A stretch of DNA of 64,000 nt, taken from positions 40,975,949 to 41,039,948 of the forward strand of contig OX387182.1 of the NCBI GenBank assembly GCA_947561395.2, read 5' to 3'. The notes below the pieces were generated by a model that had not been told where the DNA came from, searched no databases, and saw only the letters and a list, made by a program, of their open reading frames with translations. The stretch is from Buxus sempervirens (taxonomy: Eukaryota; Streptophyta; Magnoliopsida; Buxales; Buxaceae). Below are positions 191 to 56,204 of the stretch, one piece after another (positions within the stretch are counted from its first letter, which is position 1; each line of letters begins with the position of its first letter). A program made the position numbers and the translations under genes.

Positions 191-226
191 CGTTTCTTGT
201 TTTCTAAAGAGGGAAAAAGAAAAAAA

Positions 227-13145: not shown

Positions 13146-14147
13146 CAGAGAGACTGTAGATCAAGAGCCTCCTCCACTTCTATTGAAGCTACACTGAGCG
13201 AACGAAGCTTGGTCATCTTCTCAATAGAACAGCACAGATCCCTTCCATATTCTCTTCTCAACTTTTGAATGCCCAATCTTTTTAATTGGCTTAACCTTCC
13301 TAGCTCTTTTATCATGACACCACCATCATTGCATTGTTCATTTGGTTCTATAATACAAAGCTTTTGTAAGCTTGCCAAATTTCCTATTTCCCTCCCTACC
13401 TTCACTCCTTGTGTGGTTTCCGAAGTTGCGTAAGACTTTGTCTTGTAAGAATAAACGAGAAGATGACGTAACTTTTGGAGCTTAAAAATCCCCATAGGCA
13501 ACTCAGATATGCAGGCATGTTTAATATCTAAAGTTTCTAGGTTCTGGAGCCTCTCGATAGAGTTGGGAAGCATTGTTATCTTGCTTCTCCTCAAACACAG
13601 ATACCTTAAATGGAATAAATTTGTGAATTCGGTGGGGAACACTTCCAAAGGCACACTTCTTAAATCTAGTACTTTCAATAGCTTTAAACCACCAATGAAT
13701 TTAGTGTTGAAGAGTTTATGTACCTTCATGAACATCAAAGAGCGAAGGCTAGACAAGCACTTGGTTGGTGGTATGTTGTCACAACTCTTAAGGACTGATA
13801 AACGTCGGATTCTTTCCGGGTGACCCGTCTTCCAATCGTTTGTTTCTGTTCCAAAGTCCTGGTCCTTGGCCGTCGAAAGAATGATTTCATGAATGAGATC
13901 ATGGACACGGCACCTTTTGATCCTTCCAACAATATCTATTTTAGCAACTTGGATTAGGCTTCTACTGATGAGCTCATCGAGGTAGCTTTCTCCAACCTCT
14001 TCCAAGGTCATGCTTTCTTGTTCTTCTATGAACCCTTCAGCAATCCAAAAGCGAATCAGTCTCATGGGCTTAAACATGTAGTCCTCAGGAAAAAGGCTCA
14101 GGTAAAGGAAACAATGTTTGAGGTGGTGTGGCAAATGATAGTAACTA

Positions 14148-14179
14148 AGTGACAATATCTTCATGTGACAATATCTTCA
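14148..14179. repeat. 16-bp tandem duplication causing a frameshift
   Basis: The unit gtgacaatatcttcat occurs twice in a row here but once at the matching place in the second NLR copy (near 57750). The extra 16 bases shift the reading frame between the GLPL and RNBS-D motifs. Confidence 0.9.
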
Positions 14180-15413
14180 TCATGCTTTTCAGCTTGTCAT
14201 TTTTGTTCAATTCAGCTCCAAGGCTTTGATTGACGATGTCCCAATCATCTATTCTGGTACTTCCTTTTGCCAACAGGCCTCCAACTGCCACAATTGCAAG
14301 TGGCAATCCCTGGCATCTCTCCAAAATACTGTCTGAAAGTTGCTTCAAGTGCGGAGGACAAGTGTTTCCTCCGAACACCTTCTTGCAAAATAAAGTCCAA
14401 GACTTTTCTGAATCTAAGGATTCCAGATTATAAACATGACCAACACCAGAGGATAATTTGCAAGAGGAAGCTATATCATGAGAACGTGTAGTAACCAAGG
14501 CTCGACTACAGCAATTACTGTCGGGAAGAACAAATTCAAAAGCTTCCCATGCGTCTATGCTCCAAATATCATCGAAAACTATGACGTACATCTTTTGCTG
14601 CAAAAATTGTTTGATCATCTCCTTCAGCCCGACATTTGACATGGTGTCTAGATCTTGAGGAATTGATTGCTTACTTTCATTGAAGAGTTGTTATACCAAG
14701 TCCTTCAGGAGCTTCTTGATTTTGAATGATTGTGAAAAATTGATCCAAGCATGGCTCTGAAATTGCCCCTTCACTCGTTGATGATCGTAGATTTTTTTCA
14801 CGAGGGTGGTTTTGCCTAACCCACCCATACCCGCTACCGAAATTACTCCACACTGGGATTCACCATCCAAGAGCAATCCAATCAGAGTTTCTATGGGTTT
14901 TTCAAAGCCCACGAGTTCAGATTCGTCCATTAGAAGAGCGTCCTCTCGACGATCATGCCAGGTTGGCCTTGCTGTAATGGAACGTGTTAAGCCTTGTTCA
15001 AGGCTGCTGAAATGGTATCTTTGGCTTCCCTCAGAAATTTCTTGGATCCTCCTCTTTATATCCTTTATGCTTGATGCTATGTGATGGCGTGCTCTTAGTT
15101 TTGCGGCCCAACCAATCATCTTACAAACACGACCCAAGCACCCATCCCTGTGATCATCTTGTGCAAGATGAAGGATGAATTCTTCAAGAACATCTTCAGT
15201 GTCATAAGCAACGTCCCTGACTTGCTTAGCACAGATCTGAACTCTTTCTTCGATCTCATCTCTTGCATCGGCCGCTCGTAAGAAGGCTTGCATGTGCTCC
15301 AGTTCACTTCTAATGTATCGAACTTCCGTGCCAACTCCGCTCAAAGTTTTCAATTCTTCTTCACGCAAAGGAAAAATCCTCTCGAGGACAGCAGTTATAG
15401 CTCCCTCTGCCAT

Positions 15414-16180
15414 TGTTACACACTTCTGTTCTTCAAATTGGAGCTAAGGATGATTTTTACTCTCAATCTCTTTAAGCAGCTCTTCAACTGTTTATATACA
15501 AGACTCTCAACTATGATAGTTGACGGAGTCGGTCATTGGTTTGTCTGAGTGATTAAAGAATTCCTAATAATATTTAGTATCCAAAACCAACTTTTTGAAA
15601 GTGGACTAATTTAAGTCTCCCAGCCCCACAGTACTTGATTATAGCTAATAAGTAGAAAAAACAAAGGGATTGCCAATTGTTGTTATACAGATTATATCAA
15701 ATCTCTCAACGCCACTTGATTATATTATAACTAATGAAGCTTAAGTAATGTGATTAGACTTTTATTACCTTGTTATTTTAACTAAAGTTCATGTTCTCTC
15801 ACTCCGACTACCAAGAAAAATAAAAACATGTGAACAGAAGAATTCTAGGTTCACACTTGAGCAAGACAAAGTCTACAGTAACGCATGGCCCCCAACCTTG
15901 TACAAGTTGATTACAACTGATGAAGCTTCATTAAAATGATTAATATTTTAGTAAAACGAGAAAATAAATTGCATAATTAATAAGCTTATTGTCGTTTGCT
16001 TATTATTTTAACTGGAATTAACATGCTGAGGTGATTAAATTTAATCAGCTAAGGAAACGTAATGAACTTGAAAAGAGCCCACGTGTGTTTGTTACTACCA
16101 ATTTGCTTATACTTATTATTATTATTTTTAATCTGGTTGCTTATATTTAATAATGCACTGTCCAAAAGGTCACAGATCGC
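15414..16180. other. Intergenic sequence; NLR upstream and MULE left flank
   Basis: This is the upstream region of the minus-strand NLR, followed by AT-rich sequence. No gene is seen. Its right edge (taatgcactgtccaaaaggt, then cacagatcgc) is the left flank of the MULE target site and resembles the blocks at 227-266 and 481-532. Confidence 0.55.
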
Positions 16181-16189
16181 ACCTTCGTA

Positions 16190-16440
16190 CGAAAGATTTC
16201 CTCTACGGCATATTCTCTACGGCCGTTTTACGGCCTCAATCCCGTTAGGATGCGTGGATAAGAAGGTCTCGTGAGGCGCACGAGACCTTCTTATCGTTTT
16301 TCACCTAGTCAATTGGTCGATCAATCCGAACCGCTTTCGGCCCAAGACCACCAAACCACCAACCGGTTCGTCCAATTTCTCTATTCATCCGACCAATCCC
16401 CAAATCCTCTTCCAACGAGCGTGAGAGCGAGGATTTTCAA
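16190..16440 (+). repeat. MULE left terminal inverted repeat / promoter
   Basis: This segment matches the reverse complement of about 34700-34936. Shared blocks, in order, are gatttcctctacgg, cggccgttttacg, gcgtggataagaaggtctc, cgagaccttcttatcg and, more weakly, gaaccg and ggattttcaa. A near-perfect hairpin lies at 16257-16295 (arms GATAAGAAGGTCTCGTG and CACGAGACCTTCTTATC, 5-base loop). After it comes leader-like sequence with a possible splice donor near 16570 (ccaa then gtaagag), fitting an untranslated first exon for the gene starting at 19298. Confidence 0.8.
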
Positions 16441-19297
16441 AAACCTTCAACGTTTGGCACTGTCACAACCTCTCTCGCACCATATCGCTGTTGCGGCTTC
16501 CATCTAGTCGGCTTCTTTCAATCTCTTATCAGTCTCTTTGTCGCAACACCGTCTCACTCGTCTGTCCAAGTAAGAGAAGAAGATGCTTTAATTCTTTGCA
16601 TATCTGAAACGTGAATGGAAGAGAAGTAGTTCCCGTTTTTTGTTTTGATTAAATTTGCACGACTTTTTGCACTGTAGTTTCGAATGAATGTATGCAAACA
16701 ATATGAATACATGGGCTTTGAAATCGATTGTCATCTTCTGAAATGATGCTTTTGGGGTGATTGATTTTATGGATTGTTTTAGTCTCAGTGCGTATTTAAG
16801 CAGAAATAAAACCAAAGGGGTAACATGGATGATTCTGCTGCCTTTTGAAGCTAGGAACAAGAAGAAATTATTCTTTTCTTCTTCTGATTTTGGTGCATGG
16901 ATGCATAATCGCTTAATGAGTGTTAGCTCTTGTAAACACACGAGCCTAGCCATATATTATAACTTAAGTGAAGATAAAGGAAAGAATTGAAATACCTTCA
17001 TGAAATAAAAATTTAATTGCTTTGTGTATTACTAGAAGAGTATTTTGAAGGGCTGGAGTGGACTTCCCTCCAATGAGAATAATTGGGCATGCCAATCATA
17101 TATTTTTGGATCAATTTGTTGCTACTCTTCTTTTAAAATCTTAGTTTTTTTAATGAGATTTATGAAGCCACTTGATTAGAACTCTTCAGAATTGGTTATC
17201 TTGTTGAGAATGTGCTTCCTTTATGTCTAATACTTTTCAATTTTCTCCCTTGGATGTTTAAAGATATGACGAATGTGAAGATCATCAGTTAGCTCTACCA
17301 TATAGACATTGGAACTCACCTATTTTAGAAACATCAGATTGATTATTTACATGCACCCATCCATTTGAGATGAACTTGTATTTGTTTATTTTATTTATTT
17401 ATTTTTCGGTCTTGGTGATATGCTAGCATTCAGAAAATATAAATAAGTCAATAAAAAAACAAAAACAATATATATATTTTTTGTGTCTCGGTGATATGTT
17501 AGCATTCAGTACTTATTTTATATTTTGTATTAATACATGTCATCACTTATCAAAAAAATATTTTAGCATTCAGTAGGTTGTCTGGTTTGTTAAGGCAGCC
17601 TTTGGAGAATACAGGATCTTGGATTTCAAGAACTTATCTTCACAGGTATTATCTAACTTGTAAAAAATCGTTTTCTATTGTATGTTTCCAACAAAGAGTT
17701 TTTTGAAATTAGTCATTTCATTGTTCATTATTTGATGTTGCTTGGGATGAGTAAATTATTGTTATATAGTAATTATATCTGTGTTTGTGTGTCATGTATT
17801 TGGCAATATATGTGTATGTATCCATGTATATATGCATCTATATATGTCGAATATTATCCATTTTGGTTTATATATTTGACTCTCTGAATGTGACCATTTT
17901 TGAGAATTAGGTGATGGCTTGGGTTTCCTTTTGTCAGTGACTTTTAGTTCTATTCCTGGTGTATATTTGGACGGTTTTGTTATACAAGCATAGAAATTGT
18001 AAGCATAATTTCTTTTTGTACAAAATTTTTTTTAAATTGTTTTGGATTTCTGAATACACTTGCTCAAATATTTGGAACACCTTTATTTTATTTTTTGAAT
18101 TGTAAGCATCATTGCACAGGGATGATTAGAAATGGAAGAACTGTCAACACACCTCCATTCTGGGACTCATATTGTAACTTTTAGTTGGAGTGTGTAAAGT
18201 ATTTCAAACCACAAACGGCATAGAGAAGTACAATAATATGCCATCATTCTTTAAAAATTGCCTTCATAAAATTGTAAACGTATGAATGAAGTATTGTTTT
18301 AAATCCAACATAAATTAAAATAAAACAAATTTAAATATTAATACTCGAAAAAGCTGAGACAGAGAGCTCGCAAAGAATTAAAAATCCTTCATGCACAAAC
18401 AAAATACCCAAAAAGAGAACATTACATGAGGATTCATGATTTATTACTACTTTGAGATAGACACAGATAGGTCGGAACTAACGACTAAGGCTTCTTCGCC
18501 AGCAAGGGGCTCTCCACCTCTTCATTGTGGGTATCATACAAGGACCTTTAATGCCAAAGGTTACCTTGAGATGAACACACATTGGTTGAAATTAATTACG
18601 TGGATGAATTAAATATTTGATGGGAGATTTCGGAACTTAAGAACCATGTTCTTCCACTCCACATGAGAAATGCTGTGTATGCTTCCACATGAAAAGCTGA
18701 TGCTAATATTTTTTTTTTCCCTATTATTGGTGTAATAGCAATAAATAATTGTAATTTTTTTGGCTTTGATGCTAAGTTTGACGTAGAGAGGATCTCTTAA
18801 ATCAACAAGGATCCAATCTGATTTTGGGTAGAGCTGAAAAAGAAAATGAAAGATCAATTAAGAATTTCTGCTTTCTTCAATATTTAAACTAGAACATATA
18901 GGAAAACTGGTTACATTTTCTAAAGGAGTGATGCATCTTATCCTCCCAGAAACGAAGAACCTCGGTCCTTGAACACACCTAATCTGACGTATACACTATT
19001 ATTTCAGTAAGGATGAATGAAAAATCCAATAATCCTCATAAATTACAGTTTGATGTATTATGAACAGTATGGCTATAATCCCAACTAGGATAATCGGGTG
19101 CTTTTGAAACTGAATGTGCTATGATCAGGATTCCTAGAGGGTTGTAAATACAAAAGCTTTTAATGAGAGTTGTCTTTATTTGAAAATTCCTCTGTTACGT
19201 GATGTTCTTGGCTTTAATGAGAATTTTTTGCTCGAAGCTGGAAATTGGAATTGTGACATTGGCTCTGATAATGTGCAGGAAAATTTTGACTACTACA
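16441..19297 (+). other. Probable 5' leader and long first intron
   Basis: I see no protein-coding gene here. C/T-rich leader sequence to about 16569 is followed by AT-rich intron-like sequence. A candidate acceptor (atgtgcag) lies at about 19278, just before the exon holding the proposed start codon at 19298. A minus-strand frame at 18609-18857 (82 aa) has no recognisable domain. Confidence 0.4.
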
Positions 19298-22200
19298 ATG
19301 GAAACTGTTGGATCATCGTCAACAAAAAGAAAACAGCTGCGCAACAGTTGGCTACATTTCAGGTAAAGTTTCCTTCACTTATTTATTTGTTTTGTTCTAC
19401 AAGCAAGCATGAAAGCAATCCAATATTTTGGTTTAACTCTTTGTATAAGTTTGAGTATGGTTGTCAACATGCCGGTTATTTTAATTCCTTTTGCATCCTT
19501 GTAATTATTAATTTATTATTGGCCATGATTTTCCTATTGTTTTTTCAGGGACTACTATGTAAATGAAAGAACAAAGAGACTTATTGAAGGTGAACAAATC
19601 CGCACGAAGCAACAGGTAGGAATTATCAATGGTAACGGTTAAGGAAATCATTTATTTTATTTATTTTGCACTTCGTCGATCTTATTCAAATGAATTTATC
19701 TATTTAGTTATTGCATTTCAGCTATTCGCGGATGCTGCTGAATCATGGAGGGCAATGAATGAGGCTGAGAAAGAAGAATTTAAGAGAGCGTCACGGCTTG
19801 AGTGGGATGAATACAGGAGGGCTGTCCCACAACCAGGGCCGCGAAAAACACAACAGGTTCGTGAAATGGCATATCTATAATTGGAATTATTGAGGATAAT
19901 TAGTTGAGACTGATATATTCTTTCGTTTCACCTTTGTTTTGTGTAGGCTGAGCTACAGACGCGTTGTTCACTGTGAGACATGGATTTGTCATCTCGGATG
20001 ACTTCCGATATCATCACGCGGGGATCAATAAAAGCTAAGAGTCGCCACCATCCATTTTAGGGTGTGAATGGACACCAAAGGGTTCATAGAAGCCAAATAG
20101 AGCTAAAGTAGCTCTAAGATGAGGAAAAATCCAGAGATTGGGTAAGGGGAATTATTTATGAGCAGGGGAAGGTGTTAGGCACCCCCAATCATCCGTTTAG
20201 GACGGTTGCCACATGCTTGCTTATGCTAGAAATTGTTTGCTAAGGAAATGAACAAAAAGGGTGCTTATAACAAGCACAATGTGTGTGATCATCCCACATG
20301 AGAAATCTAATGAGCTTAGACTCTCTTTGTGGATCCATCACCTCTAAAACTTTATGAATGAAGGGAAATCCAAGTGAAAATGAAGAAAATCAAGCTAAGG
20401 CAAATCTGTAGAAATTAGGTCAAAAGAGCTTGAAAGCTCCGATTAACCATAACTCACTCAATTTAAATCCAAATCCAATGAAACCAAAGTCATTTGAAAA
20501 CTGGTATATAGTAGAGTATAGAGTAAAAATTTCAACTCAATCCGATTCAAAATAAGAGAGAAATCCATATCTGAAATTTGCTGTTATAGTTTATTAAAAG
20601 TGATGAGTAGGCATTTTCAAAGTCCTATTCGTGGAGTTTGGCTCAATAAAAATTCGTGAAAATTGGTATGGGGGAAGCATGTAGTGCTATCTTTCCAAAG
20701 AAAAAAACCTCACACCAAACTCTATCCGGATGTGACTTGTGTGCTTTCTTGAACAGGCCTAGAAGACCATAGATTAGCTCTGGACTATGCCAGCGAGCAC
20801 CTCTGAGTCAACTGAGCACCCAAGGCACAAAACAGATCAAAATCTGCTGAAACCAATTGGAAATGAAAATAGACTTCTCAAGGAAAACTCAGGAATTAGA
20901 ATCACTCAAAACGGATTAAAATTGAATAAACGGTGCACCATCAAAGCGGCAAGTTCAGCAATCTGGGCGGAACTGACTTATAGACTTTGAACAGATGGTG
21001 TCAAAAATTGGCTACATAAAAGTGGATGAAATTTTTTAGATATGAAATAGGCACATCTATCTATCACATGTCTTTGGAATCACTCAAAAATTCATCCGGA
21101 GGATGAAGTTATAAGCATTCCAAGACAGGCCACAGATCTGCCTTGTTTTGAAGGTTTTTGGGATAAAACATGGAAACCAGTGCATGTAGATTCGACCAAA
21201 ACCTTAAAAATCAACAAAAAGCCATCTCATGAAGTTCTAAGATTCATTTTGAAGCTAATGGATTCAGATTTCCCATATTGAACATGGAAATCCAAGATCT
21301 AGCTTCTTTGATAAAAAATGGTGGAAAGTGTGTGAATATGTGAAAATTCACTCCCTAGGAGAAGGATGGAATCCTTTGCTACTGAGGGCAAGGATTCACA
21401 TATTTCTCCATGAGCAAGTGCAAAACATCAGAAAATAAACATCCATAGGTTTAAAAAAACCACATAGCATGCTCTTCATCACTTGTGGGTTTTAAGCCTA
21501 GAGGATCCATTCCACCTTCCTTTTCCCAAGGCTCTCTCTTCACGTTTTACGGCTAGAGAGGATTCCCAGGTACTTTAGAAGGGGTTTGGGGCTTGCAAAC
21601 AATCAAAAATTGGCTTTACACTACAGAAAGGTAGAAGTTGGGAGTGAAATGTAAAGAGAGTGCTGGAAATGTAAAGAGCCTTACCTTGGTAGCTTGAACA
21701 CTTGACTAGACAATCCAGCAGAGCTTCTCCTTCTTCTTGCAGAGCTTCTAAGCCTCAAATTGTCAGCCATTTGCAAGAGGAGGACCCCTCTATTTATAGG
21801 CCAAGCCAAGGGTAGAAGAGTCCCAAGGGTAGGCCTAAAAGGCCTTCTAGATTATTCCAATTCTCCTCTAAGGCTTGAATTGGTGTAATACTAGAAGTTT
21901 CGGAGGGTGAAATAGGGAGTTCAAGTCCCTGAGAGAGAGGTAATATGCGTAAATAAGGCTCAGAAATCGAGCCATTTCGCAAATCCTCGAAACAGCCAAA
22001 CCGCATACACAGTACGGTTTCAACACAACCGTCACTATAAGTGCGGTTTCTATGCAAATTTAACCAAACCGCACATACAGGACGGTTCAATTCAGTTACG
22101 CTCGTCATGATTGCTGTCGACGTGGCTCAACGGCCGAAGCTTTGCGAAGCCACGTGGCAGCTCACGCAACAAGCATGGATATCAACCGTGCTATGTGTGC

Positions 22201-25200
22201 GGTTGCAACCGCACATACAGAGCGGTTGAGACCAAAATTACAAAAACCGTATACTCAGTACGGTTGGCACCGATTTTGAGAGTTTTTTGAGTGTTTGACA
22301 TATGTCAAGGCTCAAATAAGACCTCTAAAATTCTTTCGAAGGTTTTCTTCTATGGAAGTGCAATTTGGGGTGTCTACATTCACCTGGACGTTTCATTGCG
22401 TTCATGCACGCTATTTCGTTCAGCGCTTCTCAGGAGCAATGCCTTAGAGAGAGTGGCTTTCAGTGCCTACTGAATTTACACGCGACAAAGCTTAATCGAC
22501 GACTCTGTCATTGGATTGTTCCGAAAGTTGATTCTAAGAAGAGATGTATTAGAGTTGGGGAACTGAATATTTTCTTCGACACGCACGACATGGAGAGGAT
22601 AATTGGGTTACCCGTACAGGGGATAGATGTTGATACATCTAAATTAGAAATCCCCGATATGACAGAGTTGTATAGCTTTTACGGGGTACAAAATGGAAGC
22701 ATCCCTATTCAGAATGTTGAGGATAGCCTGAAGAGTCCAAAGAACAATCATGAGTGGATCCGTTCTTTTGTATTATATTCGTTGACGACTTTAATAAATC
22801 CATCTTCAAAGATTGACGTGAGTGCATCCTATCTTCCCTTGCTGGTCGATGTAGAGAGGATAGGAAGTTAAAACTGGGGAAAGTATCTTTTAGACACATT
22901 GATGCATCACGTAGCCGAGTTTCAAATGGGCAAACGGAAATGCGTCAATGGGTGCTTATTATTTTTACAGGTACGTATAGTATTTAATAGATGCATTGGC
23001 TTGTTAACTCTAGCTTATGATTCTGTTTGTGCGTCTACTGATAATTAGATTGTTGCTTAGTTTTTGTATTACGATCAGCTGATCGTTGGTCAACCAACAC
23101 CTTCCACTACTCCACGTATGGCAGCGTGGACGGATACATTGATTTTCCAAAGGGAGAAAGATGAAATGGCGCTCGGTGGGTATGGAAAGGGGAAGGTATA
23201 CATATATAAATTTGAGTTGAACTGCTTCGTCACTTGTAGGTTTTGTTGTCAATTTTTCAAATAACGCAACATTTGTATGTACTCACTAATATTGTAGGTG
23301 GTTGAGCACCATGCCAAGAGCCGGGTGCAAGATGAGGCATCAGGCAATGCAGATGAACTAAATATCATTGATCTTAGGCAATTTTGTGGAGATCCAGATC
23401 CTGTAAAATTGGTTTATTTATTTTATTTTATTTTTGTCTTATACTTCACGTTTTCTTATTAAGAACACATCCGCAGGTTTTATGATTGGGTGTTGTGTAT
23501 TCCAGGTTATTCAGGGTCATCTCACAAAGATATTGGACACGTATAGGGAGATGCTAAATCACGTGAAGTCAAGGGAAACCGTCGACCCCTCCGATATCCA
23601 CGTGCCACGTGAGAGCCCTGATCATATGGATGCTCCCGATTCTCCCATGCCCGATGTTCCTGACGAAGCAAGGATGTCACCCTCCCATCATAGCACCCAC
23701 GAGAGTGGTGATCATACCGATGCTCTCGACACGGTGGTGTTTGCGGAGGTATAGAAAGATAAAATTCAAGTGGATGAGGTGGCGATAGTTCCGGCTCAAA
23801 GCGGCACCGGGACCGAGGTAACCAAACCTCGAAGAGGGTCATGCAAGAAGTCACGTGGGAGACATTGTCGCACTCCATATATTGGCCATCGGTTCTGTCC
23901 TCGATTGGGCCCAGAAGAAAACTCAATCCTACAATACGTTCGCCAAAAACAGAAATCTGAGTAAGATAATATTTCTAAACTAGTAAATGTTATTTATGTA
24001 TTATAATTCGTAGTGAATAATTCCTCATCGTTTTTTTCAGTGAAATTATATTCAAATTTGATTCCATCTTCGCGTCGGCATTTGAATTGGCATGTTTGTT
24101 AGACAACAAACATGTTAATAGTGTGGTATGCAAAGCCTATCTTGTGAATAATATATTGGTTGTTCAATTGTACATGCCATTGCTCACGGTATTTTTTGTT
24201 AGGCTATCAATGCTTTTGGAGCATGTCTTATAAAGAACCAACAATTGTCGACTAGCCGCAAAGTCAGCCGACATTATTGCCCCATATATGTTTGTGTAAG
24301 GACTTTTTTGTATTTTCTTTGTTTGTTGTTCAAGGCCAAAGGCCAAAGTAATGAATAAAATTTCCTTCCGTATATTATGCAGGAGTGGATAATGAATATT
24401 GAGCGTGGTTCCACCGAATCCTTGCGTCCTTACTTCGATCCAGGGCGACTAGGGTATTCTGTGGTTGCATGCAATCTTGTAAGTTTCTTGGGATGCAATG
24501 TGCCACCTTCACAAGTGATTTGTTCCAGATTTTGTATGCTTTTATCCTTATTTAGCAGTCTGTAATCAGTTTTTTACTTATAAGGTTGTCTTACTGGTAT
24601 GTAGATTTTTGTTCCCTTGTATCTGCGCAATCATTGGTTTCTTTTAGTTTTAAACCTAAAAGAGCGGAGAGTGGATGTGCTTGACTCAATGGATGGGGGG
24701 CGTCGTGCGCGACATCAATCCATAATTGAAACGCAGGTAATTTTTATATTAATGAAATTTTCTCATACCATTTACAACACTTATCATATTGACACTCGCT
24801 TCATCACTTGTAGATCCAGATGTTGGATAAGATCTTATGTGACTTCGGAGGTGGTGATCAATTTCCACTTCTACTGTGGGAGTTGCGGCGGGTTAACGTC
24901 CCACACCAAACCAACGGGTAAGCCGTTAATTTTGTTTTGCTTCATACATATGTTAGCTTCTTACAAGTGATGTAATTATATACCGTTAGGTATGATTGTG
25001 GTGTCTTCATGATGAAATTCATGGAGGTATGGGATGGCAGCACCTTGTCTCCAGGATTTGATCAGGTGCGTATATAACTTAAATGTTTTTTTATAATTAT
25101 AGTTATCAAGTACGTCGCTAGTAATACACAAGTACGTCTTCTATGAATTCAGAGTAATATCGCACACTTTAGGGATAAGTTCCTTGTTGACTTCGTTAAG

Positions 25201-25290
25201 CACCCTTCAAACCAAGTGCGGGACATCGTTATTTCTAAGGCAGCAAACACAAAGGAACCGGAGGAGACTAGTGAAAGTGAAGAAGCCTAA
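19298..25290 (+). pseudogene. HMG-box-like / Ulp1 (C48) SUMO-protease-like gene, interrupted
   Basis: Fourteen exons can be joined by GT-AG introns: 19298-19362, 19549-19615, 19722-19856, 19947-19971 plus 22384-22970 (split by a solo LTR), 23061-23195, 23298-23402, 23506-23960, 24041-24125, 24203-24295, 24383-24478, 24605-24736, 24814-24917, 24990-25065 and 25153-25290. They total 2298 bases, exactly 766 codons, with all phases agreeing. The N-terminus (KRKQLRNSWLHF, YYVNERTKRL, SWRAMNEAEKEEFKRAS) looks like an HMG box, a DNA-bending fold. The C-terminus has a Ulp1 cysteine-protease layout: His in LRNHWFLLVL, Asp in VDVLDSMDG, Gln in VPHQTNG and Cys in YDCGVFMMKF. The middle resembles plant transposon-linked Ulp1 proteins (CHWIVPKVDS, MERIIGLPV). 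Lesions are the solo LTR, TAA at 22869-22871 and TAG at 23752-23754. The function is inferred only: deSUMOylation linked to MULE biology. Confidence 0.75.
19972..22378 (-). mobile_element. Solo gypsy-type LTR in an exon of the HMG/Ulp1 gene
   Basis: The 2407-bp insert starts TGTGAGACATGG and ends GGGGTGTCTACA (TG...CA), with a 5-bp direct repeat TTCAC at 19967-19971 and 22379-22383. Removal restores an open reading frame across the exon (codons ...CGT TGT TCA CCT GGA CGT...). The same family forms the LTR at 60627-62897, which has a polypurine tract on its minus-strand upstream side, so this copy is also minus-oriented. On that strand a TATA box (ctataaatag) lies at 21799-21790, with repeats of AACCGCAC/GCGGTT words at 22000-22265 upstream of it. 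Confidence 0.9.
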
Positions 25291-25973
25291 GGAGTAAGAC
25301 CTATCTGTTACATGTTCAATAATAAGGTTATTTTAAACTAATAACTTTCAGGTGCGTACATAAATTTATGATTACATTGTTTATAGGTATGACAACTCCA
25401 GCATTCTTGGCTTGATAGCAAGGTGAAGAAACTGAAGGCCATCTTAAACATCAACGTACAACTTACGATTGTACATTAACTTGTTTGTACATTAAAATTG
25501 TACATACATCAAATTGTACTTGTATGTAGAGGGTTGTACAATTAAATTGTAGATGAAATTGTTTGTGAGAGGAAGACAATTGTAAATTTGCAATATTATC
25601 AATCTCTTTTTTCAGTTATTGTACTATGATGACAGGTCTTTTCTGATGGAAAAGATGCTTCATTTTGTTAAGTTCTCACATCGTAGTAAATATTGCAAGC
25701 TTCATATCGCAAAGGATGTGAATTCGGAAATTTGTTAACTTAATTGATTTAAATCCATATATTATAACAAACCAAACAAACACATGCAAGGTATTAATAT
25801 CTTGTAAAGGCATTTGATAACAAAGGTTTGGTTTATGTTTATAACTCAAGATTTTCAAGCCTTAACTACCTTAAATATCTTGCAAGGTATTTTTTTTCTT
25901 ACTCTTCTTTTTTAAATAAAATTTAGGAATCAAGAATAATCCATGTAAGCTATCAGGAAATTATAAATCAAAA
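25291..25973. other. 3' flank of the Ulp1-like gene
   Basis: No coding exon is seen. A/T-rich sequence with repeated ttgtacattaa-type words near 25470-25550 looks like a 3' untranslated or terminator region for the gene ending at 25290. Confidence 0.4.
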
Positions 25974-26084
25974 CATGCCTGGTTACAAGTCAAACCATCC
26001 CTGGTTACAAGTCAAACCATCCCTGGTTACAAGTCAAACCATGCCTGGTTACAAGTCCAACCATCCCTGGTTACAAGTCAAACC

Positions 26085-28599
26085 TGTAACGCCCCGGATC
26101 CGTGTTGTTCAATAAAGATATAACACGTCTCACGGAGGTTAGGCAAGGATCGTTAATCAATTTATGATCGCTGGATAATCATATAGCTATAACCTGACAG
26201 AGTGCACATTTCCATTTATGCAAAATTGTAACATTTAAACTGAACTAGAATCGTATGGTTCAACCCCAATTAAACTTTAATACATCTAAATTAATTCAAA
26301 GATCTCAAATTCAGAACAGATAACCTACTAGTCTAAGGAAGGTAATAGTAATCCTCCTCCCTATAAGCCTCAGCAGGATCTACCCCAGAAATCGCCTCAC
26401 CACGAGTATCTGAAAAACAAACAAGACAAACAACGGAGTGAGATACGAATATCTCAGCGAGTAGCACATGCATGCAGAAATAGTTGATCACAATTTAAAC
26501 TATGCATCGACAAACACCGAATACGGTTAAACGACCAACATCAATTCTCAAATCGAAATCAAGGCTTGTTCTAATCAAACAAATCACATCTCAGTTAAGT
26601 ACGGCAACACATCGATTGGTCAATGTCATGACTATCGTTTAGTTGATAAATTAAGCATGCCAAGTAGACACTCCACACCTCCATGTACACAGTTCTGACC
26701 TACTCAAGGTTTCGGATACTCTGAAATGACGGCCTACTCAGGGTTTCGTCATCCAATGCAGGCCTACTCCCCGGGTTTCTGCATTGACAACCAGGCCTAC
26801 TCAGGGTTTCTGGCTGCTCTACACCGGTCGTGGCAACACACAAGGCCATGCAATTCCAACAACCAACAATAACATCACATTACTAAGCTTAAACATCTGG
26901 ATCCAGGACAAGCTAGACCAAAACAGTAAAACGTCGTATAATCTCAATACCAATATCAAAGAAAAACCATTCATTTCATATCATGTAAAACTCATCACCA
27001 TTCATCACCTGTCCCTCTGGACCAAGCAGTACCACAAGTACTTTCAGTATTTTCTCATTTCCGTAACACATGTCATTTGAAAGTAAAACTCAATTCATTC
27101 ATACCAAGGAAATCTTTACAATACATTTAAAGTTTCCAAACAAGTGAAACCAGAATAGAATAACTCCTCAATCGAAACAGTGTATAAAACAGAGGAAATG
27201 TAACTAGTAACTCTTAGTGGTTTGGTATCCGGCACAACACTCATAAATAACCTAAACTCAACTTGAAAGCTTTTAAGTAGTTCACTAAATTTTCCTCTAA
27301 TAGTTTCCTAGGCAAAATAGATTCCCAGGGCTCCCAAACAAGTGAATAGTGAAGTGGTTTAATCCTCAAGTAACCCAAATACTCATAGTTAAATCAAATC
27401 TCCAATTCAGTAAGCAAAATAGGGTCTGCCGCTCACTTCCTGAGGTGGGCGCGAGGTGAGCGCCGTTCGGCGGTAAGGAAATGGGGTAAAATCGACCTAC
27501 CGCTCACTCGACGCTAGGTGAGCGCGAGCTGAGCGCCAGACGGGCGTGAGGTGGGCGCGAGATTCGCGCGAGATGAGCGCCAGGTTTTCTGCTAAGCGCG
27601 AGCTGAGCGCCAGACGGGCGTGAGCTCGGCGGTGGGTGGTATTTAACGGGGCGCCTACCTCTTAGGTGAGCGCCGGTGAGCGCGAGGTGGGCGGATACCC
27701 CCTGTGATTTTCATTTCTCTGTTCTTCCAAGATCTAAATGACTGGCCAGTTTGTTTATCTCTGTAATTGTTCCACTACACTCCCAATACTCCCAGAAGAC
27801 TTCCCAACCATATTTGGATTTAATCTAAACACTTTTAAATAAACAATAAAATTCAATCTCCGAACTCTGTTCATGTCATTTCCAGAAAACCAGAAACTCA
27901 TACATCATTTGAGATACAAAACATGCATCGAAATAAGCTCACGAAAACCTTAAACACAAAACCCAGTTGTAAATCAGTGCTACTCACCTGAATGCCGAAT
28001 GCGCTTATTCCCGACTATATCAAAACCTCGGCCGATCACCACTACGGCCACGCACGCGAATGAAGAATCTCTCCAAACAAAACTTCTTGAGCACAGAGAG
28101 ATAACCCACTGAAGTTAAACTCCAAAATCCTTCCCTTAGGCTTTGCGATGCTTGTTCTACAGGAGCAGAGCCCTAATCGCCACTCCAGCCGAAATCGCTC
28201 AACTCTCCTGATACTCAGACTAGCGAAAAATGTTTCCGTAAGTATACGCGTATTTCGTTTAAAACCAAAAACCCTACTTTCCCTTATTTGCACATTTAAC
28301 ATTTACCTTGCGAGATGTATACGCCGGTCGATCAACCCTTTTAACCCCTTGATCCTATGCATGCTCGCCCACCGGAAACACTACATGTTCCACATCCATT
28401 TACGTTAATAAGCACATAACTATACTTTAATAATAATAATGATAATAATACGATTTTTCAGAAAAATGGCTATATAACGCCTATACATACGAGTATGGGC
28501 TAAGCCCTCAAACCACAAAATCACCTGATAAACATAGTTATATATATATGAATAATAAATACACAAACAATAAAACTTACCAAAAATCAGGGTCTTACA
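26085..28599 (-). mobile_element. Solo LTR (gypsy-type) inside the minisatellite
   Basis: The 2515-bp insert begins TGTAACGCCCCGG and ends GGGTCTTACA on the plus strand, with the 5-bp direct repeat AAACC at 26080-26084 and 28600-28604. Read on the minus strand it starts TGTAAGACCCTG and ends CGGGGCGTTACA, ends typical of plant gypsy LTRs of the Tekay/Del type. No reverse transcriptase, primer-binding site or second LTR is present, so it is a solo LTR. A GC-rich word array (ggtgagcgc, gcgcgag, gagctgagcgcc) occupies 27425-27690. Confidence 0.85.
27425..27690. repeat. GC-rich GGTGAGCGC word array within the LTR
   Basis: Variants of gaggtgggcgcgag, ggtgagcgc and gctgagcgccagacgggcg recur about ten times in an otherwise AT-rich LTR. 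The local base composition is sharply different from its surroundings. Confidence 0.8.
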
Positions 28600-28879
28600 A
28601 AACCATCCCTGGTTACAAGTCAAACCATGCCTGGTTACAAGTCAAACCATCCCTGGTTACAAGTCAAACCATGCCTGGTTACAAGTCCAACCATGCCTGG
28701 TTACAAGTCAAACCATGCCTGGTTACAAGTCCAACCATCCCTGGTTACAAGTCAAACCATCCCTGGTTACAAGTCAAACCATCCCTGGTTACAAGTCAAA
28801 CCATGCATGCCTGGTTACAAGTCAAACCATGCCTAGTTACAAGTCCATCCATGGCAGGGACAAGGTATGAGGTTAAAAA

Positions 28880-29240
28880 ATTCGCTAAGTATGGCGCTTT
28901 GGGCGCGATTTCGCACCGCTCGAGCGGGAGGGTCCCAAATGGCCGAGGTTTTTAAAAATTTCTTCATGTTTTGCACCGCTCGAGCGTCAAACGTGCCATG
29001 CGCAAACCCAGAAAAGTCCAAGTATGGCGCTTTCGGGGAGATTTCGGGCCGCTCGAGCGTCAAGACTAAATTAAAAAACTCAGAGAACCCGAGAGTGACG
29101 CTCTCTGCGCGACTTGGGACCGCTCGAGCGACAAGGCAAAATTGAAAAAAACCACAGAGAACCCGAGAGTGACGCTCTGCGCGCGACTTGGAGCCGCTCG
29201 AGTGTCAAGCCGTAATTTGTAAAAAAATATAAATCGAGCT
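28880..29240 (+). promoter_or_regulatory. CGCTCGAGCG repeat promoter upstream of a TATA box
   Basis: The palindrome ccgctcgagcg occurs at about 28916, 28977, 29051 and 29121, with a one-base variant at 29194. Two neighbouring segments (gagaacccgagagtgacgct) also repeat. A TATA-like atataaat lies at 29227-29234 and a C/T-rich leader follows, then the transposon-protein start codon at 29701. This looks like an LTR U3 or a transposon promoter acting on the plus strand. Confidence 0.55.
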
Positions 29241-29594
29241 TAAAAACCCTGCGATCCCTTCTTCTTGGTATTTTCTCCTTGTTGCGACCATCACCACCCC
29301 TTCCACTACTCCAGGTCGATTCGCCAGGCATTTGCAACGTTGTGCTTCAGATTGGATCCAGGGCAATATTTCGTTCGCCAAGGTACGTGGGGACAATATT
29401 TCACATTTCTCTTGAAAAAATATTTCGTTCACATTTCCATGTTTTAGGATTTCATTTAGGATGGTTTATACATTGAAGAAAATGACTCTTGTCGTTGTTT
29501 CATCACACTTCTTAACCGATTTCATCTTATTTAACCAATGACTCTTGTCGTTCATGCATTGGGTGTATCTTTTCGTTCGTTTTTAAACGATTTC

Positions 29595-29618
29595 ATATAT
29601 ATATATATATATATATAT
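29595..29618. repeat. (AT)n microsatellite
   Basis: About twelve AT dinucleotides in a row, in the leader or intron upstream of the transposon-protein ORF. Confidence 0.95.
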
Positions 29619-29700
29619 TTGTTATATTTCCTTTCTCCTTCTTCCATTGCTTGAATATGTGCCTCTCAACCTTTATTTTCATCGAGATCTAATACTATAC

Positions 29701-30851
29701 TGTTAATGCAGATGCCTAAACGACGCAAGACCACCCGAGGTCTCCGTCTAACGTACAACCTCATGAGGTTGATACCGAATATTTTGTTGACCGCCATGCG
29801 CAAATGAGGTTTCGTCAATACCTGAACAACCGGAGTCTCCTGTTAGAGCGGGAGGTAATAATCCGCGAGCTTGATCCCGAGATTACTTCAGTTTTTACTT
29901 CTAGGGGTTGGGAGCCTTTGCTAAAAAATCTTCTTGCACCCCAAGCCATCCTTGTTCGGGAGTTCTATGCAAACATGCATGATTGGTCCCTTAGCCCTCC
30001 CAGATTCAAAATGTATTTTCGCGGTCAAACAATTTCCGTCACCCCTGATGTCATCTCTCAGATATTAGGGATACCAAGAGTGCCTGAGCCTCGATATCCT
30101 TACCGTGAGACAGACCCCCCTTCACCTACTGTTATGGCATCTTTTGTGTGCAACTGTACTACCCCTTTCTATGGAACACATCTAGTGATTGATAATATTC
30201 CAACTCATCGGTCGGTTGTTCTTCGGATTATGAGCACCAACATATGCCCAGTGGGTCATTTACATACCCTCCCACTCCAGAGACTTAGCTTCTTTTATGC
30301 ATTACTCCAAGGTCATTCAATAGACCTTCCTTCCCAAATGATTCGCTCCATGCTACACATTATAATTCACGTCAAACGGAAGCGAAAACTTATATTTCCT
30401 TGCCTCATTACCCGACTCATGCAAGGACTTGACGTACATCCCAGAAATTGAGCGACCTCTAGTGCTTCCACCGCCTATTGGGCCTACCACCGTAGCACAA
30501 AGTGTTGCGCATGCGAATACTGCTACTCGGGCTGGTGCTCTTCGTCCACGTCGTCAAGCATCTTCCCAAGCTGGAACCTCTCATTCTGGTTCATCTTCGG
30601 CTGGTCCTTCATTTGATCCACCTGCCGTTATGGATTATTTGCCAAGGATTTATGAAGTCCAGCAACAATCGCGCGCAGAAGTGGCGCTGATCCGGTCGAC
30701 CCAAGAGACGCAAAGCCGGCAGCTTGCAGAGATACAGGGAGCAGTGTCGCAACTTCAACTGCACTTTAACCAGGAGCAAGAGGACGAAGAGGGGGAGGAA
30801 GACGAGGATGACGACGAGGATGATGACGATGAAGAACGTGAGGCAGACTGA
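29701..30851 (+). pseudogene. Plant transposon-protein-domain gene, frameshifted
   Basis: A start at 29701 (MPKRRKTT) is followed in another frame by PHEVDTEYFVDRHAQ and then the frame at 29804-30451, which shows SRGWEPLLKNLL, AILVREFYANMHDW, FRGQTISVTPDVISQILGIP and RSMLHIIIHVKRKR. That order is characteristic of the plant-specific putative transposon protein domain, which occurs in retroelement and transposon ORFs. A further frame change near 30425 leads to a Ser/Gln-rich tail, a coiled-coil-like segment (QQQSRAEVALIRSTQETQSR) and an acidic Glu/Asp run ending at 30851. Two frameshifts make this copy non-functional. Lying inside the MULE, it may be a third MULE gene or a separate later insertion. 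Confidence 0.65.
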
Positions 30852-31255
30852 AGCAAGGAGGGGAGCTGAAATTTTAGTATTTTGTCGTAGCCTTGAACTA
30901 TATTTTGTGTACAAACGTTGTACTTGTTTTATATGTATTTAAGGTTGTACCCATTAGTGGCTTGCACTCTTCAAAATTTAGCACACTAATTGTGCTCCTT
31001 ATTCCAATGTTTTGGAGTTACGATTTTTATTTTGCTTACTTTCTTCGAAATGCATATGGTGTTTCATTTAACATACGTTGACTTAGGGAAATTAGCGTTT
31101 CTTCTTGGCAAGACATTGATTCGTAATATTCAGGAGTATTAATCAATTGCTATAACTGTTCACTTCGAATTTTAAGTGAATCACAACCTATTTTAAAAAA
31201 AAGATTCAATACATAATTCCACAAATTTGAAGTAAAGAATTAAGTATCCCAACAA
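30852..31255. other. Intergenic sequence between convergent genes
   Basis: About 400 bases between the 3' end of the plus-strand transposon-protein gene and the stop codon of the minus-strand FAR1-type gene. AT-rich; presumably both 3' ends. No further gene is seen. Confidence 0.5.
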
Positions 31256-34200
31256 TCAAGGGGCCTTGTTTGCAGCTTCTGCTGCTGCTTTCTCTGCTTC
31301 GAGCTTAGTAACAGTTGCATCAATTTCCGCCTCATCAAGCTGTTGCAGTCCCTTATCTTTTGTCATCACAGCAATTTCTATGTGTTTTCCCCCACTCTCA
31401 ACAACCTAAATGCAATATACCAAAATCATGTTCAAAATATAGATTAGACACCGTGCATTGGGAACAAATCATGTTTTCTGGATGAATAAGTTAGCAAGCA
31501 TTCCTTTAGTTTAAAATATAGATTAAACAATTTGCACGTGAAATAATTTCTAATAAAACAATTCAATTACCTGTTTGCGACCTTCAAACGTTTCTATATG
31601 GTTGAGATCCAACAGGAGATAAATACGTCTGAAGAAAAAAGTGTTGCGTTAAATACATGTGATATTATGAAAAAAACTCAACAACTTACAGTATTCGCAC
31701 CTGCAACAATTGAGTAAAAGGTTGATCACATTGGCGAAGGGAATCCCGGCTGCATTGAGATGAGTCATACGTGCTTGGTGTCGAGCCATTAGTGTGTTCA
31801 TCCACACTGCTTTCTACCCCACGCGTATATCGTAACGGTTGCTGTACAACGCACAAACTATTCAACATAAATAATCCGCCACAATTGTAGAAAGTGAATC
31901 AAAAATTAAAGACAGGAAATACCTGAATGCAAAGAGTATATGGATTCAAATGGACATCGGATGGGATAATCAATAGCTCATTTCCAAATGGAGCCGATGG
32001 AACAGTATGATTGACAATAGGAGTTGCATTGGAACAGGTACCAACTTCAAAGTTCGAACGTTTACCCTTTGTTCCGCTTTTATGGTTCTGTTTGATAGCA
32101 TCTATATGCAACGGGCTCCCAGAATATTCTGATTTTTTGGATCTCTTCCTGATGGCTTTATTGAGTGCTCCTGGAATTCGACGCACACTTGTTCCTGCAC
32201 GACCACCCTTATCCTTCTTCCAAATACCTTTCACTTTAGAAAGTACATCTTCTATCAAAGCTGCGTCATTAGAAGTATGATTGTCAGTAGTACCGCCCGT
32301 GCTTACTCCCTTAGTGCCGCCTACAACGTAGTCAGCCGCTGTATTTTGGGAGCCGGCTGTACTATATGTTGTGGTGGGATGGTTTTGAGATTGATTTTCC
32401 AATGTTTTGCCAATTGCAATTGTACGGACTCCGTCTTTTAACTTATTTGCCAATTCCACAGCATGCTCATACGACTCCCGGTATTGTGCAGCTTGCTTTA
32501 TAATCTGCATATACATATAACATAGATCTTTATATCTTTTGGTTGTTTCAACTTTAGGATCATTCTCCTCCATTGATCCCTCGGTTCGTGGCAAAAAATC
32601 CAAGTTCTTTGCATCCCTTGTCCATCGCTTCATGATGTAATGCTTTGGGATATGTGTGATTCCATTTACTAGCAACACAATAAGGACATGGCAACACAGT
32701 ATTCCCGCGTACTCATATTTCTTGCAACTACACTTGACGGTGACAGTCGAAGATTCAAATGTAACTGTGTGCTCTCTACGCCGACGCTCAAGATTATTAA
32801 CCTTATACTCTGAAAGTGTACCAATCGCACCACATTTGCAGGGGACACAGTTCATGACATTGTATGCCTCTTTCTTAACCTTCTCAAAAATTGACATTGT
32901 GTATATCATCTTGACACCATCTAACATTATACTTGGAGCCTCAATAATTGGAACACTAGTAAGCATTTTGCAATCTGCTTTCAACTCCTCATACCTTCTA
33001 TCCTCTAGTAGTCTGTCAAAATGCCACAGGAACCGTATAAATTCTTTCTGACTTTGCAAATGCTTCTTCAAGTTTGCATTCATGCTTTCAGACCTTTGTG
33101 TGGTGCTCATCTCAGCAGAAAACGTATTCCTACCGTATGCCAATGACCATTTCTCTCTCTCATCAAATCTTGCCTGCAACCAACTATTGTCAGACAGATT
33201 ATATTTGGTAATCATCGCATTCCACGCATCCACAAACTCATCTTCATTCTCATACTCGTACACACATCGTGAAAATTCATTTGCAAAAGATTTCTCACGA
33301 TTAAACACATCACTTAGATGTTTTGCCACGTTCTGAAACATGTGCCACACACAAAAACGATGATACGTTCTTGGTAATACACAAGCAATTGCACTTGTCA
33401 TTGCTTGATCATGATCAGTGAGAAGTGTTCTTGGTTCTTTCCCAGACATAGCTGTAACAAATGTTTTGAAGAGCCAACAAAACGTCGGTATTGTTTTATC
33501 ATAAAGTAAGGCTGCTCCAAAGACAATACTTTGTCTATGATGATTTACCCCAACAAATAATCCAAAAATACGGCCCTCCTTATTCGTCTTATACGTTGTA
33601 TCGAAACATACAACGTCACCGAAAGCCTTATAATCCTCTATCATTCCTCCATCCGCCCAAAAAAGACTTGTTATCAGATCTTCGGTGTCGAGCTCAATAG
33701 AATAGAAAAATGATTGATCCTCTACCTGCCTCTTAACAAAATATTGAATCAAGGCCCGTGCCTGCCTAGCTTCTATGGCAGTCGTGCGTTTCGAACGCAA
33801 ATAGTTTTGACAATCCGCATGCATAAATCCAAGAGTATCAACACCCCCAGCTTCTCTTTGCATAAGTTCTACAATTGCTTTCGGAGCAATTCCTGTTTTA
33901 TCTGCTAAATCGATTTCCGTAGCCTGGATCTCACTTACTTACCTATGAGATCTTAACATATGAGCCATCTTAGGCAAAAGTAACTGATGATTATGCTTTG
34001 GTTCAAATTGCGACACCACAAATTTTCCCTCGCCATTCATCAAAATCCTCAATCGTGCCATACAACCAATCCTGGTCTCAGCACGGTGCTTTTGAACTTC
34101 CGTATCTCTTTTATCATGTCGCCGATGACCTTCTCTTGAATAGCAAAAAATTCTATCAAAAATGATCCCTGTATCTTTTCTTCTGTGAACCGTATCTCTT

Positions 34201-34400
34201 CTAATACCAAACCCAGTGCTTCTGGCATATTCCTTATAAAATCTAAAACTGTCCTCTTCAGTGGCAAAAACCATGCCAACCATCGGTATCAACTCACTTT
34301 CACTGCTCAATTCTATAACGTCACATTGGTCAACCAAATGAGCGTTGATGTCTGTAATGCCATTTATTGGCTCAGACATCATTTGACTCCCATTTTCCAT
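31256..34400 (-). pseudogene. FAR1/MULE transposase gene with one nonsense codon
   Basis: Four exons fit: 34400-31923, 31841-31690, 31628-31571 and 31405-31256, total 2838 bases (946 codons including stop) with agreeing phases. The N-terminus is a FAR1-type zinc finger (FYKEYARSTGFGIRRD, FCYSREG, RIGCMARLRI, PKHNHQL). The centre is a MULE transposase with DDE-type residues in VVCFDTTYKTN, TLLTDHDQAMT and TTQRSESMNANL. A SWIM zinc finger (VKCSCKKYEYAGILCCHVL) follows, then a Ser/Thr-rich part and a C-terminal helix (ATVTKLEAEKAAAEAANK). The only break seen is TAA at 33939-33941, after MLRSHR; the next 25 codons stay in frame and resemble family members. It reads inward from the right terminal repeat, as expected of the MULE's own transposase. 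A domesticated FRS-type host gene is less likely given the terminal repeats and target duplication. Confidence 0.85.
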
Positions 34401-34699
34401 ATTTGAACAAAATTGGTTTCGATGTGAAACGTGGGTTCAAGAATAAAATAAAACAAAATGAACAAGGGAAAACGAGTAGCAGAGGATGAACTTACCACGA
34501 TTTGCAAAAGACGCAGAGGTAGAAGAAGGCTTAGAAATCGTCATCCCGATTGAAATTAGATGTGCATCAACAGACACGACTTCAAATCTCCTACCAATCC
34601 ACAATGAAGTGGCAACGAAAGAGTAGAGGAAATGGGTTGCTCCACTGTTTCGTTGCATCCAACAAAAGGTGTAAACGAAATGATTGGCGGCAAATATTT
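34401..34699 (-). other. 5' leader of the FAR1-type gene
   Basis: Read on the minus strand, a splice donor (cgtg then gtaagt) lies at about 34499-34494. This suggests an untranslated first exon above it and a short intron before the start codon at 34400. No other coding sequence is seen. Confidence 0.45.
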
Positions 34700-34936
34700 T
34701 TTGGCAAAAGTTGAAAATCCCCACGAGCTCTCAGTCGCCATCGTCCTCTCCTCATTTTCCTTTGGACCAACCAGATGGTCGGTTGGAGATTTGGGTCATG
34801 AAAACCGGTTCGTCTAGGTCGACCCATTGAACCAGGTAAAAAACGATAAGAAGGTCTTGTGAGGCGCACGAGACCTTCTTATCCACGCGTCCTAAACGGA
34901 TTGACGTCGTAAAACGGCCGTAGAGGAAATCGGTCG
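34700..34936 (-). repeat. MULE right terminal inverted repeat / promoter
   Basis: Inverted counterpart of 16190-16440. It keeps the outer cgatttcctctacgg block, the cggccgttttacg block and the hairpin (34853-34891) with one arm mismatch (ggtcttgtg instead of ggtctcgtg). Its inward side leads into the leader of the minus-strand transposase gene. Confidence 0.8.
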
Positions 34937-34957
34937 ACCTTCGTATTGTCTGATTTA

Positions 34958-56174: not shown

Positions 56175-56189
56175 ATCTGAGCAACCTTA

Positions 56190-56201: not shown

Positions 56202-56204
56202 GTT

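Follow-up and report, generated by a model that had tools for sequence, protein, structure and literature searches.

We analysed a stretch of 64,000 nucleotides of the Buxus sempervirens genome (assembly GCA_947561395.2, contig OX387182.1, positions 40,975,949 to 41,039,948; hereafter the window). The original prediction placed a Mutator-like element (MULE) with two genes and a 9-bp target duplication in this window. The MULE is present, and it belongs to a multi-copy family that carries a FAR1-type transposase gene, a Transposase_32 gene, a gene for an HMG-PMD-Ulp1 protein (PMD, plant mobile domain), and a 22-bp tandem array. All coordinates refer to the window unless stated otherwise.

Borders of the element

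The element, its flanks, and two related target sequences are located as follows.

16190-34936, no strand assigned: MULE copy, 18,747 bp as found, about 13,815 bp minus both nested insertions
16181-16189, plus strand: left copy of the target-site duplication ACCTTCGTA, an exact repeat of 34937-34945
34937-34945, plus strand: right copy of ACCTTCGTA, directly outside the right end
16190-16375, plus strand: left terminal inverted repeat (TIR), with the variable hexamer CGAAAG followed by the conserved core ATTTCCTCTACGGC
34762-34936, minus strand: right TIR, with the hexamer CGACCG followed by the core
481-532, plus strand: related unoccupied target sequence, matching the flank join over 57 bp at 86% (E 5e-12) across the junction
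222-261, plus strand: second related unoccupied target sequence, matching the flank join over 41 bp at 85% (E 1e-6) across the junction

Positions 16210-16316 and 34824-34930, which lie 18,507 nt apart, are complementary at 85% over 107 nt, and BLAST paired the left end with the reverse complement of the right end over 165 bp at 81%. The local score of this pair was 173, compared with a maximum of 26 among 200 two-base-block shuffles. Thus, the predicted inverted ends about 18.5 kb apart are real. Long TIRs are found in many, not all, MULEs. The perfect 9-bp flanking repeat was also confirmed: ACCTTCGTA occurs on the plus strand of the 64 kb only at 16181 and 34937, each time abutting an element end and equal in 9/9 bases, and it was not found on the other strand of the window. 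The length of 18.7 kb given in the original prediction needs correction, because 4.9 kb of it consist of two later insertions.

For the flank join, both flanks were fused with a single 9-mer and compared with the window. The unoccupied join had been placed at 227-266 and 481-532. Matches were indeed obtained at 222-261 and 481-532, but they are paralogous and read ACCTTGTA, i.e., the 9-mer minus one base. On the right-hand side, the agreement stops about 16 bp past the 9-mer, where the right flank passes into another repeat that is seen also at 40797. Judged by these alignments, 481-532 and 222-261 are related empty sites and not the orthologous one.

With a similarity of only 81-85% between the two ends, and additional bases close to the terminus of the left one, they might stem from two different elements, ACCTTCGTA being a chance repeat. 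We rejected this origin as extremely improbable: copies elsewhere in the genome carry the same pair of end types together, round the same genes and with 9-bp repeats of their own, and in the window copy the 9 bases flanking the two predicted borders match exactly, with an empty paralogue in addition.

Three genes of the family

The following genes were assigned to the element.

31899-34400, minus strand: transposase gene with FAR1 domain, MULE catalytic domain, and SWIM finger
29703-30851, plus strand: Transposase_32 (PF20167) gene, frame broken in the window copy
19298-25290, plus strand: HMG-box/PMD/Ulp1 (Peptidase_C48) gene, 14 exons in the family, broken in the window copy
19298-19362, 19549-19615, 19722-19856, and 19947-19971 continued at 22384-22970, plus strand: exons 1-4 of the Ulp1 gene
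23061-23195, 23298-23402, 23506-23960, 24041-24143, and 24203-24295, plus strand: exons 5-9 of the Ulp1 gene
24383-24478, 24605-24736, 24820-24917, 24990-25065, and 25153-25290, plus strand: exons 10-14 of the Ulp1 gene
24605-25065, plus strand: exons with the Ulp1 catalytic residues H, D, Q, and C, in the window frames

The transposase gene gave matches to PF10551 (8.5e-26), FAR1 (2.5e-24), and SWIM (9.6e-6), as a MULE-type DDE transposase does. The Jittery group, MULE group 36, is described as having an N-terminal FAR1 domain and a C-terminal SWIM or CCHC domain (PMC6446971). The transposase has this domain layout, by which the family is placed among the FAR1-type (Jittery-like) MULEs. Its frame is open from the ATG in three of nine other copies spanning the gene, and 13 of 30 other near-complete genome matches at 93-97% are free of stops, when queried with the 679-residue part after the window stop.

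As predicted, this gene faces an HMG-box/Ulp1 gene, with the FAR1, MULE, and SWIM matches on the minus strand and the Ulp1 gene on the plus strand. The element had been described as carrying two genes; the family has three, the PF20167 gene having been overlooked. It sits between the other two, gave a Transposase_32 match of 3.2e-24 in the window frame, and is open from the ATG over 376-380 aa in 6/10 other copies. Open Transposase_32 frames about 90% like that of the window were also seen at C1:41385643, C15:24209715, and C6:25751300, with no transposase among the matches listed there.

The exon model of the Ulp1 gene was predicted from sequence only, by means of splice sites and by projecting the exons onto 10 copies. 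In the copy C3_60540, the product comprises 772 aa and matches Peptidase_C48 (1.9e-18) and the PMD (9.5e-13). Its HMG box was detected with 2.8e-5 when the N-terminus was scanned alone and with 5.8e-4 in the whole protein. The residues H, D, Q, and C of this product align with SENP2, in keeping with an Ulp1/C48 protease, and we take these His, Asp, Gln, and Cys to be the catalytic residues. The C48, PMD, and sub-threshold HMG matches together with the SENP2 alignment support the presence of the predicted HMG-box/Ulp1 gene.

Pooled over copies, the ratio of amino-acid-changing to silent differences (pN/pS) was 0.39 for the transposase (6 copies) and 0.47 for the Ulp1 gene (7 copies), i.e., amino-acid-changing differences were fewer than silent ones, and 0.58 for the Transposase_32 gene (6 copies). 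These sums omit visibly broken copies, save three transposase copies with 1-2 stops, whose stop codons were skipped. Two close copy pairs differ in the Ulp1 gene by a silent divergence (dS) of only 0.2-0.6%, which points to recent movement.

The Ulp1 gene might be a captured passenger of no use to the element, like most transduplicated fragments. MULEs and CACTAs often capture Ulp1 sequences, in a patchy pattern (PMC2528002), and the gene is broken in three of the ten copies fetched from the host genome as well as in the window copy. We consider a useless passenger unlikely, since internal stops are absent from 7/10 copies (including one whose splice acceptor is unusual), the catalytic residues are retained, and the pooled pN/pS is 0.47.

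Decay of the window copy

Compared with its relatives, the window copy carries the following stops and insertions.

33939-33941, minus strand: in-frame TAA between the FAR1 and MULE domains, absent in 9/9 comparable copies
22869-22871, plus strand: in-frame TAA in Ulp1-gene exon 4, absent in 10/10 other copies
23752-23754, plus strand: in-frame TAG in Ulp1-gene exon 7, absent in 10/10 other copies
19972-22378, no strand assigned: nested insertion in Ulp1-gene exon 4, resembling a long terminal repeat (LTR) element, 2,407 bp, TG...CA, 5-bp duplication TTCAC
26085-28599, no strand assigned: nested LTR-like insertion inside the 22-bp array, 2,515 bp, TG...CA, 5-bp duplication AAACC

Judged from these lesions, the window copy is dead and non-autonomous. 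The stop at 33939-33941 deprives it of the intact transposase of an autonomous element, the Ulp1 gene contains an insertion and two stops, and the third frame is broken; hence, the self-contained working system proposed for this locus was not found. A short intron spanning the transposase stop was rejected, because only 19 bp separate the possible splice sites and 9/9 other copies encode an amino acid at this position. In 10/10 other copies, exon 4 of the Ulp1 gene is uninterrupted. The term LTR-like refers solely to the TG...CA ends and 5-bp duplications of the nested inserts, and no long direct repeat was found within either of them. Without the inserts, the window copy measures about 13,815 bp and is thus comparable in size to its relatives. 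Part of the insert in exon 4 (20038-21111) has a 66% match at 60698-61786.

Copies in the host genome

The searches of the 676.5-Mb host genome scored the best candidates only, and the resulting counts are lower bounds that include the window copy. The left end was found at 80-100% in at least 40 places (the best 40 of 202 candidates), and an Ulp1 exon at 93-100% in the best 40 of 181 candidates. For the right end, the best 40 of 169 candidates were scored, 17 of which span almost the entire query at 90-100%; for the transposase, the best 65 of 1131 candidates were scored. Ten relatives were fetched as 20-kb stretches, along with single ends of further copies. Both ends are present in nine of the ten, eight of which are 12.5-14.1 kb and one 17.4 kb long; for C11_2729, the right end was not found in the 20-kb stretch. 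Stretches taken at computed right-end positions contained the right end in 11 of 20 cases.

Duplications were scored by eye from the flanks of copies with both ends readable. Among 21 full-length copies including that of the window, 14 have duplications with 9/9 bases equal, three with 8/9, and one with 7/9, while in three no duplication abuts the element end; one of them, C11_30007, does have the 9-mer, five bases further out. The same end pair recurs round the same genes with 9-bp duplications belonging to the individual copies, so that the outcome named in the original prediction as refuting it did not arise. Intact relatives exist as well, all three genes being open in C3_60540, C12_10510, and C1_58209 (3/10 fetched relatives).

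Terminal hexamer and palindrome

Within the TIRs, a palindrome was recognized at two places.

16257-16295, no strand assigned: 39-bp palindrome with 17-bp arms, within the left TIR
34845-34883, no strand assigned: 39-bp palindrome with 17-bp arms, within the right TIR

The 14-bp terminal core ATTTCCTCTACGGC has 208 sites in the genome, compared with 3 for the reversed control. Wherever the duplication is clear, exactly six bases separate it from the core. This terminal hexamer (16190-16195 and 34931-34936) is hypervariable among copies and constrained in composition: 32 left ends with distinct flanks show 21 kinds of hexamer, whereas the 14 positions that follow hardly vary. In 60 ends, only A or G was seen at position 3 and no G at position 4; L041, a left end outside this set, is an exception with C at position 3. 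An interpretation of the hexamer as a 'coupling sequence' was rejected, the GC content being 0.66 in the hexamers and 0.38 in the 9-bp flanks.

Left and right hexamers are identical in 5 of 18 full-length copies (1.2 expected by shuffling) and agree at 73/108 positions (48.2 expected). With all 21 full-length copies, there are again 5 identical pairs (1.3 expected) and 76/126 agreeing positions (55.6 expected). In 13 short copies, a count that omits three composite pairs, the hexamers are identical in 4 (1.4 expected), and 52/78 positions agree versus 49.6 after shuffling, i.e., without excess. The agreement between left and right may partly come from shared descent.

The palindrome is retained with changes in many other ends, including a paired change from GATAAG/CTTATC to GATGAG/CTCATC; among the left ends scanned, 5 gave no match to the search pattern. 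The 5-bp loop of the palindrome can be found either way round, depending on the copy.

A 22-bp array kept in gene-less offshoots

A single tandem array, split by the 2,515-bp insertion, lies between the Ulp1 and Transposase_32 genes.

25961-26084, plus strand: 22-bp tandem array, first part
28600-28853, plus strand: 22-bp tandem array, second part

This array, which we regard as the most telling part of the element, does not figure in the original prediction. The window array has 16 or 17 units, depending on the definition used. All ten other fetched copies contain the array with 20-42 units spanning less than 1 kb, and the spacing is exactly 22 in 241 of 270 intervals (nine copies). One searched form of the unit, TACAAGTCMAACCATGCCTRG plus one base, has 999 exact sites in the genome compared with 0 for the reversed control; the first 100 of these, all on one contig, fall mostly within family copies. 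Unit sequence and number vary between copies, with 17-66 units among array-bearing elements. Outside the array, its 7-mer ACAAGTC showed no enrichment in the nine elements measured. A dyad in the unit is striking in the window and was dropped as a candidate feature, as the commonest unit of most other copies lacks it. Five to seven diverged 22-bp units also occur outside the element, at 37125-37267; when two family copies were compared with the window, nothing else outside the element matched.

Smaller derivatives were sampled as 16 inverted core pairs, 1.2-10 kb apart, from the first 100 of the 208 core sites. Scored by eye, the 9-bp duplication is perfect in nine pairs and 8/9 in three; the remaining four comprise a pair within a simple repeat and three composite sites, which show no duplication as paired. 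In nine offshoots, no match to the three genes was obtained at E 1e-3, except for the first 24 transposase codons in L115. Each of these nine gene-less offshoots (9/9) carries the array, with 24-66 units and beside different cargo. It runs one way in five, the other way in two, and both ways in two; L116 and L117 have a single stray unit on the opposite strand. L109 was picked after its array was known, the others were not. L112, at 1.3 kb, consists mostly of ends plus array. Because it is retained in gene-less offshoots, the array is a candidate cis part of the element and may contribute to its spread. L109, L110, and L111 have a common frame that resembles a captured host gene; a Pfam scan of 60 of its residues gave no match, and the longer frame in L110 gave PPR. 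L117 has a frame with a C2 domain, which also looks like a captured host gene. From their frames, the PPR- and C2-bearing offshoots look like Pack-MULEs.

Proposed mechanism and alternatives

We consider it probable that the observations have one joint explanation: a dead MULE copy of a three-gene family, with the ends and the array as cis parts and an Ulp1 protein that may oppose silencing. A Jittery-like MULE inserted upstream of an NLR gene, making the 9-bp target duplication, and the two LTR-like insertions and the stops struck the window copy later. The transposase would bind the ends and move the element by DDE-type transposition, and it would move the gene-less copies in trans, as expected from MULEs in general. 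These steps, and the ends and the retained array as cis parts, are the most likely portion of the explanation. With less certainty, and by analogy, the HMG-PMD-Ulp1 protein may be a trans factor whose target is the array, or chromatin proteins assembled on it, and may remove SUMO or a similar modifier, so that it would counter silencing of the family in a VANC-like manner. The proposals of the original prediction that each gene is driven by its own terminus and that the element carries a SUMO-modifying factor are still inferences.

Several observations weigh against this explanation. The HMG match reaches 20.7 bits in the whole protein and 24.9 for the N-terminus alone, below the Pfam cut-off of 25.4. 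Transposase_32 comparisons with C11_12242 give pN/pS values of 0.80-1.07, and pN/pS in general rests here on few differences in recent, non-independent pairs. Interiors were fetched for 10 of the 16 offshoot pairs, the other 6 standing outside the count. Because some offshoots share descent (three have the same PPR-type frame), the 9/9 represents fewer independent events. Finally, a 4.1-kb offshoot (L118, L119) has a transposase with 1 stop and an 8/9 duplication; no array was found in the two fetched stretches of it, and the 2 kb between them are transposase. The array may thus be dispensable, unless it was lost from the 4.1-kb copy after insertion.

This small transposase-bearing copy also favours a reading in which the array is a passive, functionless minisatellite that expanded a single time in an ancestral copy and has been inherited since. 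Minisatellites change their number freely, as the range of 17-66 units would reflect, and several offshoots (L109, L110, L111) are of one structure. Such an array is possible, if doubtful, given that 9/9 gene-less offshoots, which represent several types of structure, have kept it in one orientation, the other, or both while losing the genes, and that a 1.3-kb element is mostly ends plus array.

Alternatively, the array could serve the transposase as a signal in cis, or enhance transcription, instead of being the target of an Ulp1-type anti-silencing factor. FAR1 domains bind DNA, as known for FHY3/FAR1, enhancers function in either orientation, and in C3_60540 the array ends 954 bp ahead of the Transposase_32 start. 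In full-length copies, however, the array lies kilobases from the ends, unlike usual transposase sites, and the 4.1-kb copy has a transposase and no array. We regard such a signal as conceivable and rather improbable.

Surroundings of the element

The MULE lies 738 bp upstream of an NLR-like frame (14691-15443), which belongs to NLR-like frames at 12926-15443 on the minus strand; Rx_N and NB-ARC were found in 14691-15443, and the remainder was assigned by eye. A related stretch at 56589-57906 is 91% like 12986-14326. On the minus strand at 52224-56186, an open frame of 1,320 codons resembles, by eye, a Ty1/copia polyprotein and is flanked by direct repeats of 96% (51726-52015 and 56191-56482). 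A second copia-like set, at 44909-49062, lies between 260-bp repeats of 99%.

Relation to known systems and significance

The locus had been put forward as the strongest candidate in the window for a little-described system. The pairing of Ulp1 and MULE is already published for Jittery-like elements, whereas the combination of HMG-PMD-Ulp1, Transposase_32, and a retained 22-bp array looks new. In grapevine, MuDR-like and some Jittery-like MULEs contain ULP regions in both orientations, with and without TIRs, and ULP sequences in MULEs of melon, rice, and Arabidopsis are cited in the same paper (PMC2528002). The grapevine Jittery-like elements resemble the Buxus family as members of the Mutator superfamily with ULP downstream of the transposase gene in either orientation, and the grapevine MULEs have 9-nt duplications where these were found (PMC2528002). 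The multi-copy Jitvine-1 and -2 are similar in length (11.9 and 14.4 kb), but no TIR or duplication is listed for them, and the available part of that text does not mention an HMG-PMD-Ulp1 fusion, Transposase_32, or a 22-bp array (PMC2528002). A literature search, covering mainly titles and the starts of abstracts, with most subscription papers including the Kaonashi and melon originals outside it, retrieved no description of an HMG-PMD-Ulp1 MULE.

In the Kaonashi (KI/KIU) MULEs of Arabidopsis, an Ulp-type protease is likewise encoded in reverse to the transposase; unlike the Buxus family with its long TIRs and FAR1-type transposase, these are non-TIR elements of the mudrA type (PMC2528002, PMC13317346). 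Abermu of barley likewise has three open frames, of which one runs opposite to the transposase, a Ka/Ks below 1, and recent activity, but is MuDR-like, and its opposed frame has no assigned function; Ulp1, PMD, and HMG are absent from the available text (PMC9168764). Several groups of MULEs contain PMD genes, often antisense (PMC6446971).

In VANDAL elements, the VANC proteins bind tandem repeats in noncoding DNA, and from one copy to another these repeats grow, shrink, and change in sequence (PMC5735166, PMC10398659). VANDALs and the Buxus family have in common an extra gene borne by the element and noncoding tandem arrays that change fast in number and sequence, those of the Buxus family being candidates for a comparable target role. 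They differ in the type of transposase, and VANC binding and demethylation have been measured (PMC5735166, PMC10398659), whereas the Buxus family is known from its sequence. Vandals carrying KIU, which has an Ulp1 domain, also induce hypomethylation (PMC13317346). By analogy, FAR1-type MULEs might have built a VANC-like anti-silencing system independently, in which the HMG-PMD-Ulp1 protein would bind DNA, read the phased 22-bp array, and strip SUMO from silencing factors located there, and mobile derivatives would have to keep the array. We offer this as a tentative idea that is, by our own estimate, somewhat unlikely. If true, the array would be a passport that gives Pack-MULE-like offshoots with captured genes access to the trans factors.

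Ulp1-type proteases recur in plant transposons, and the function of the domain in these elements has been called unknown (PMC13317346). The young Buxus family offers a testable pair, namely an Ulp1 protein rich in domains and a short array that is retained in 9/10 small derivatives whose interiors were fetched. Should the protein act on this array, the presence of Ulp1 domains in transposons would find an explanation as a means against silencing.

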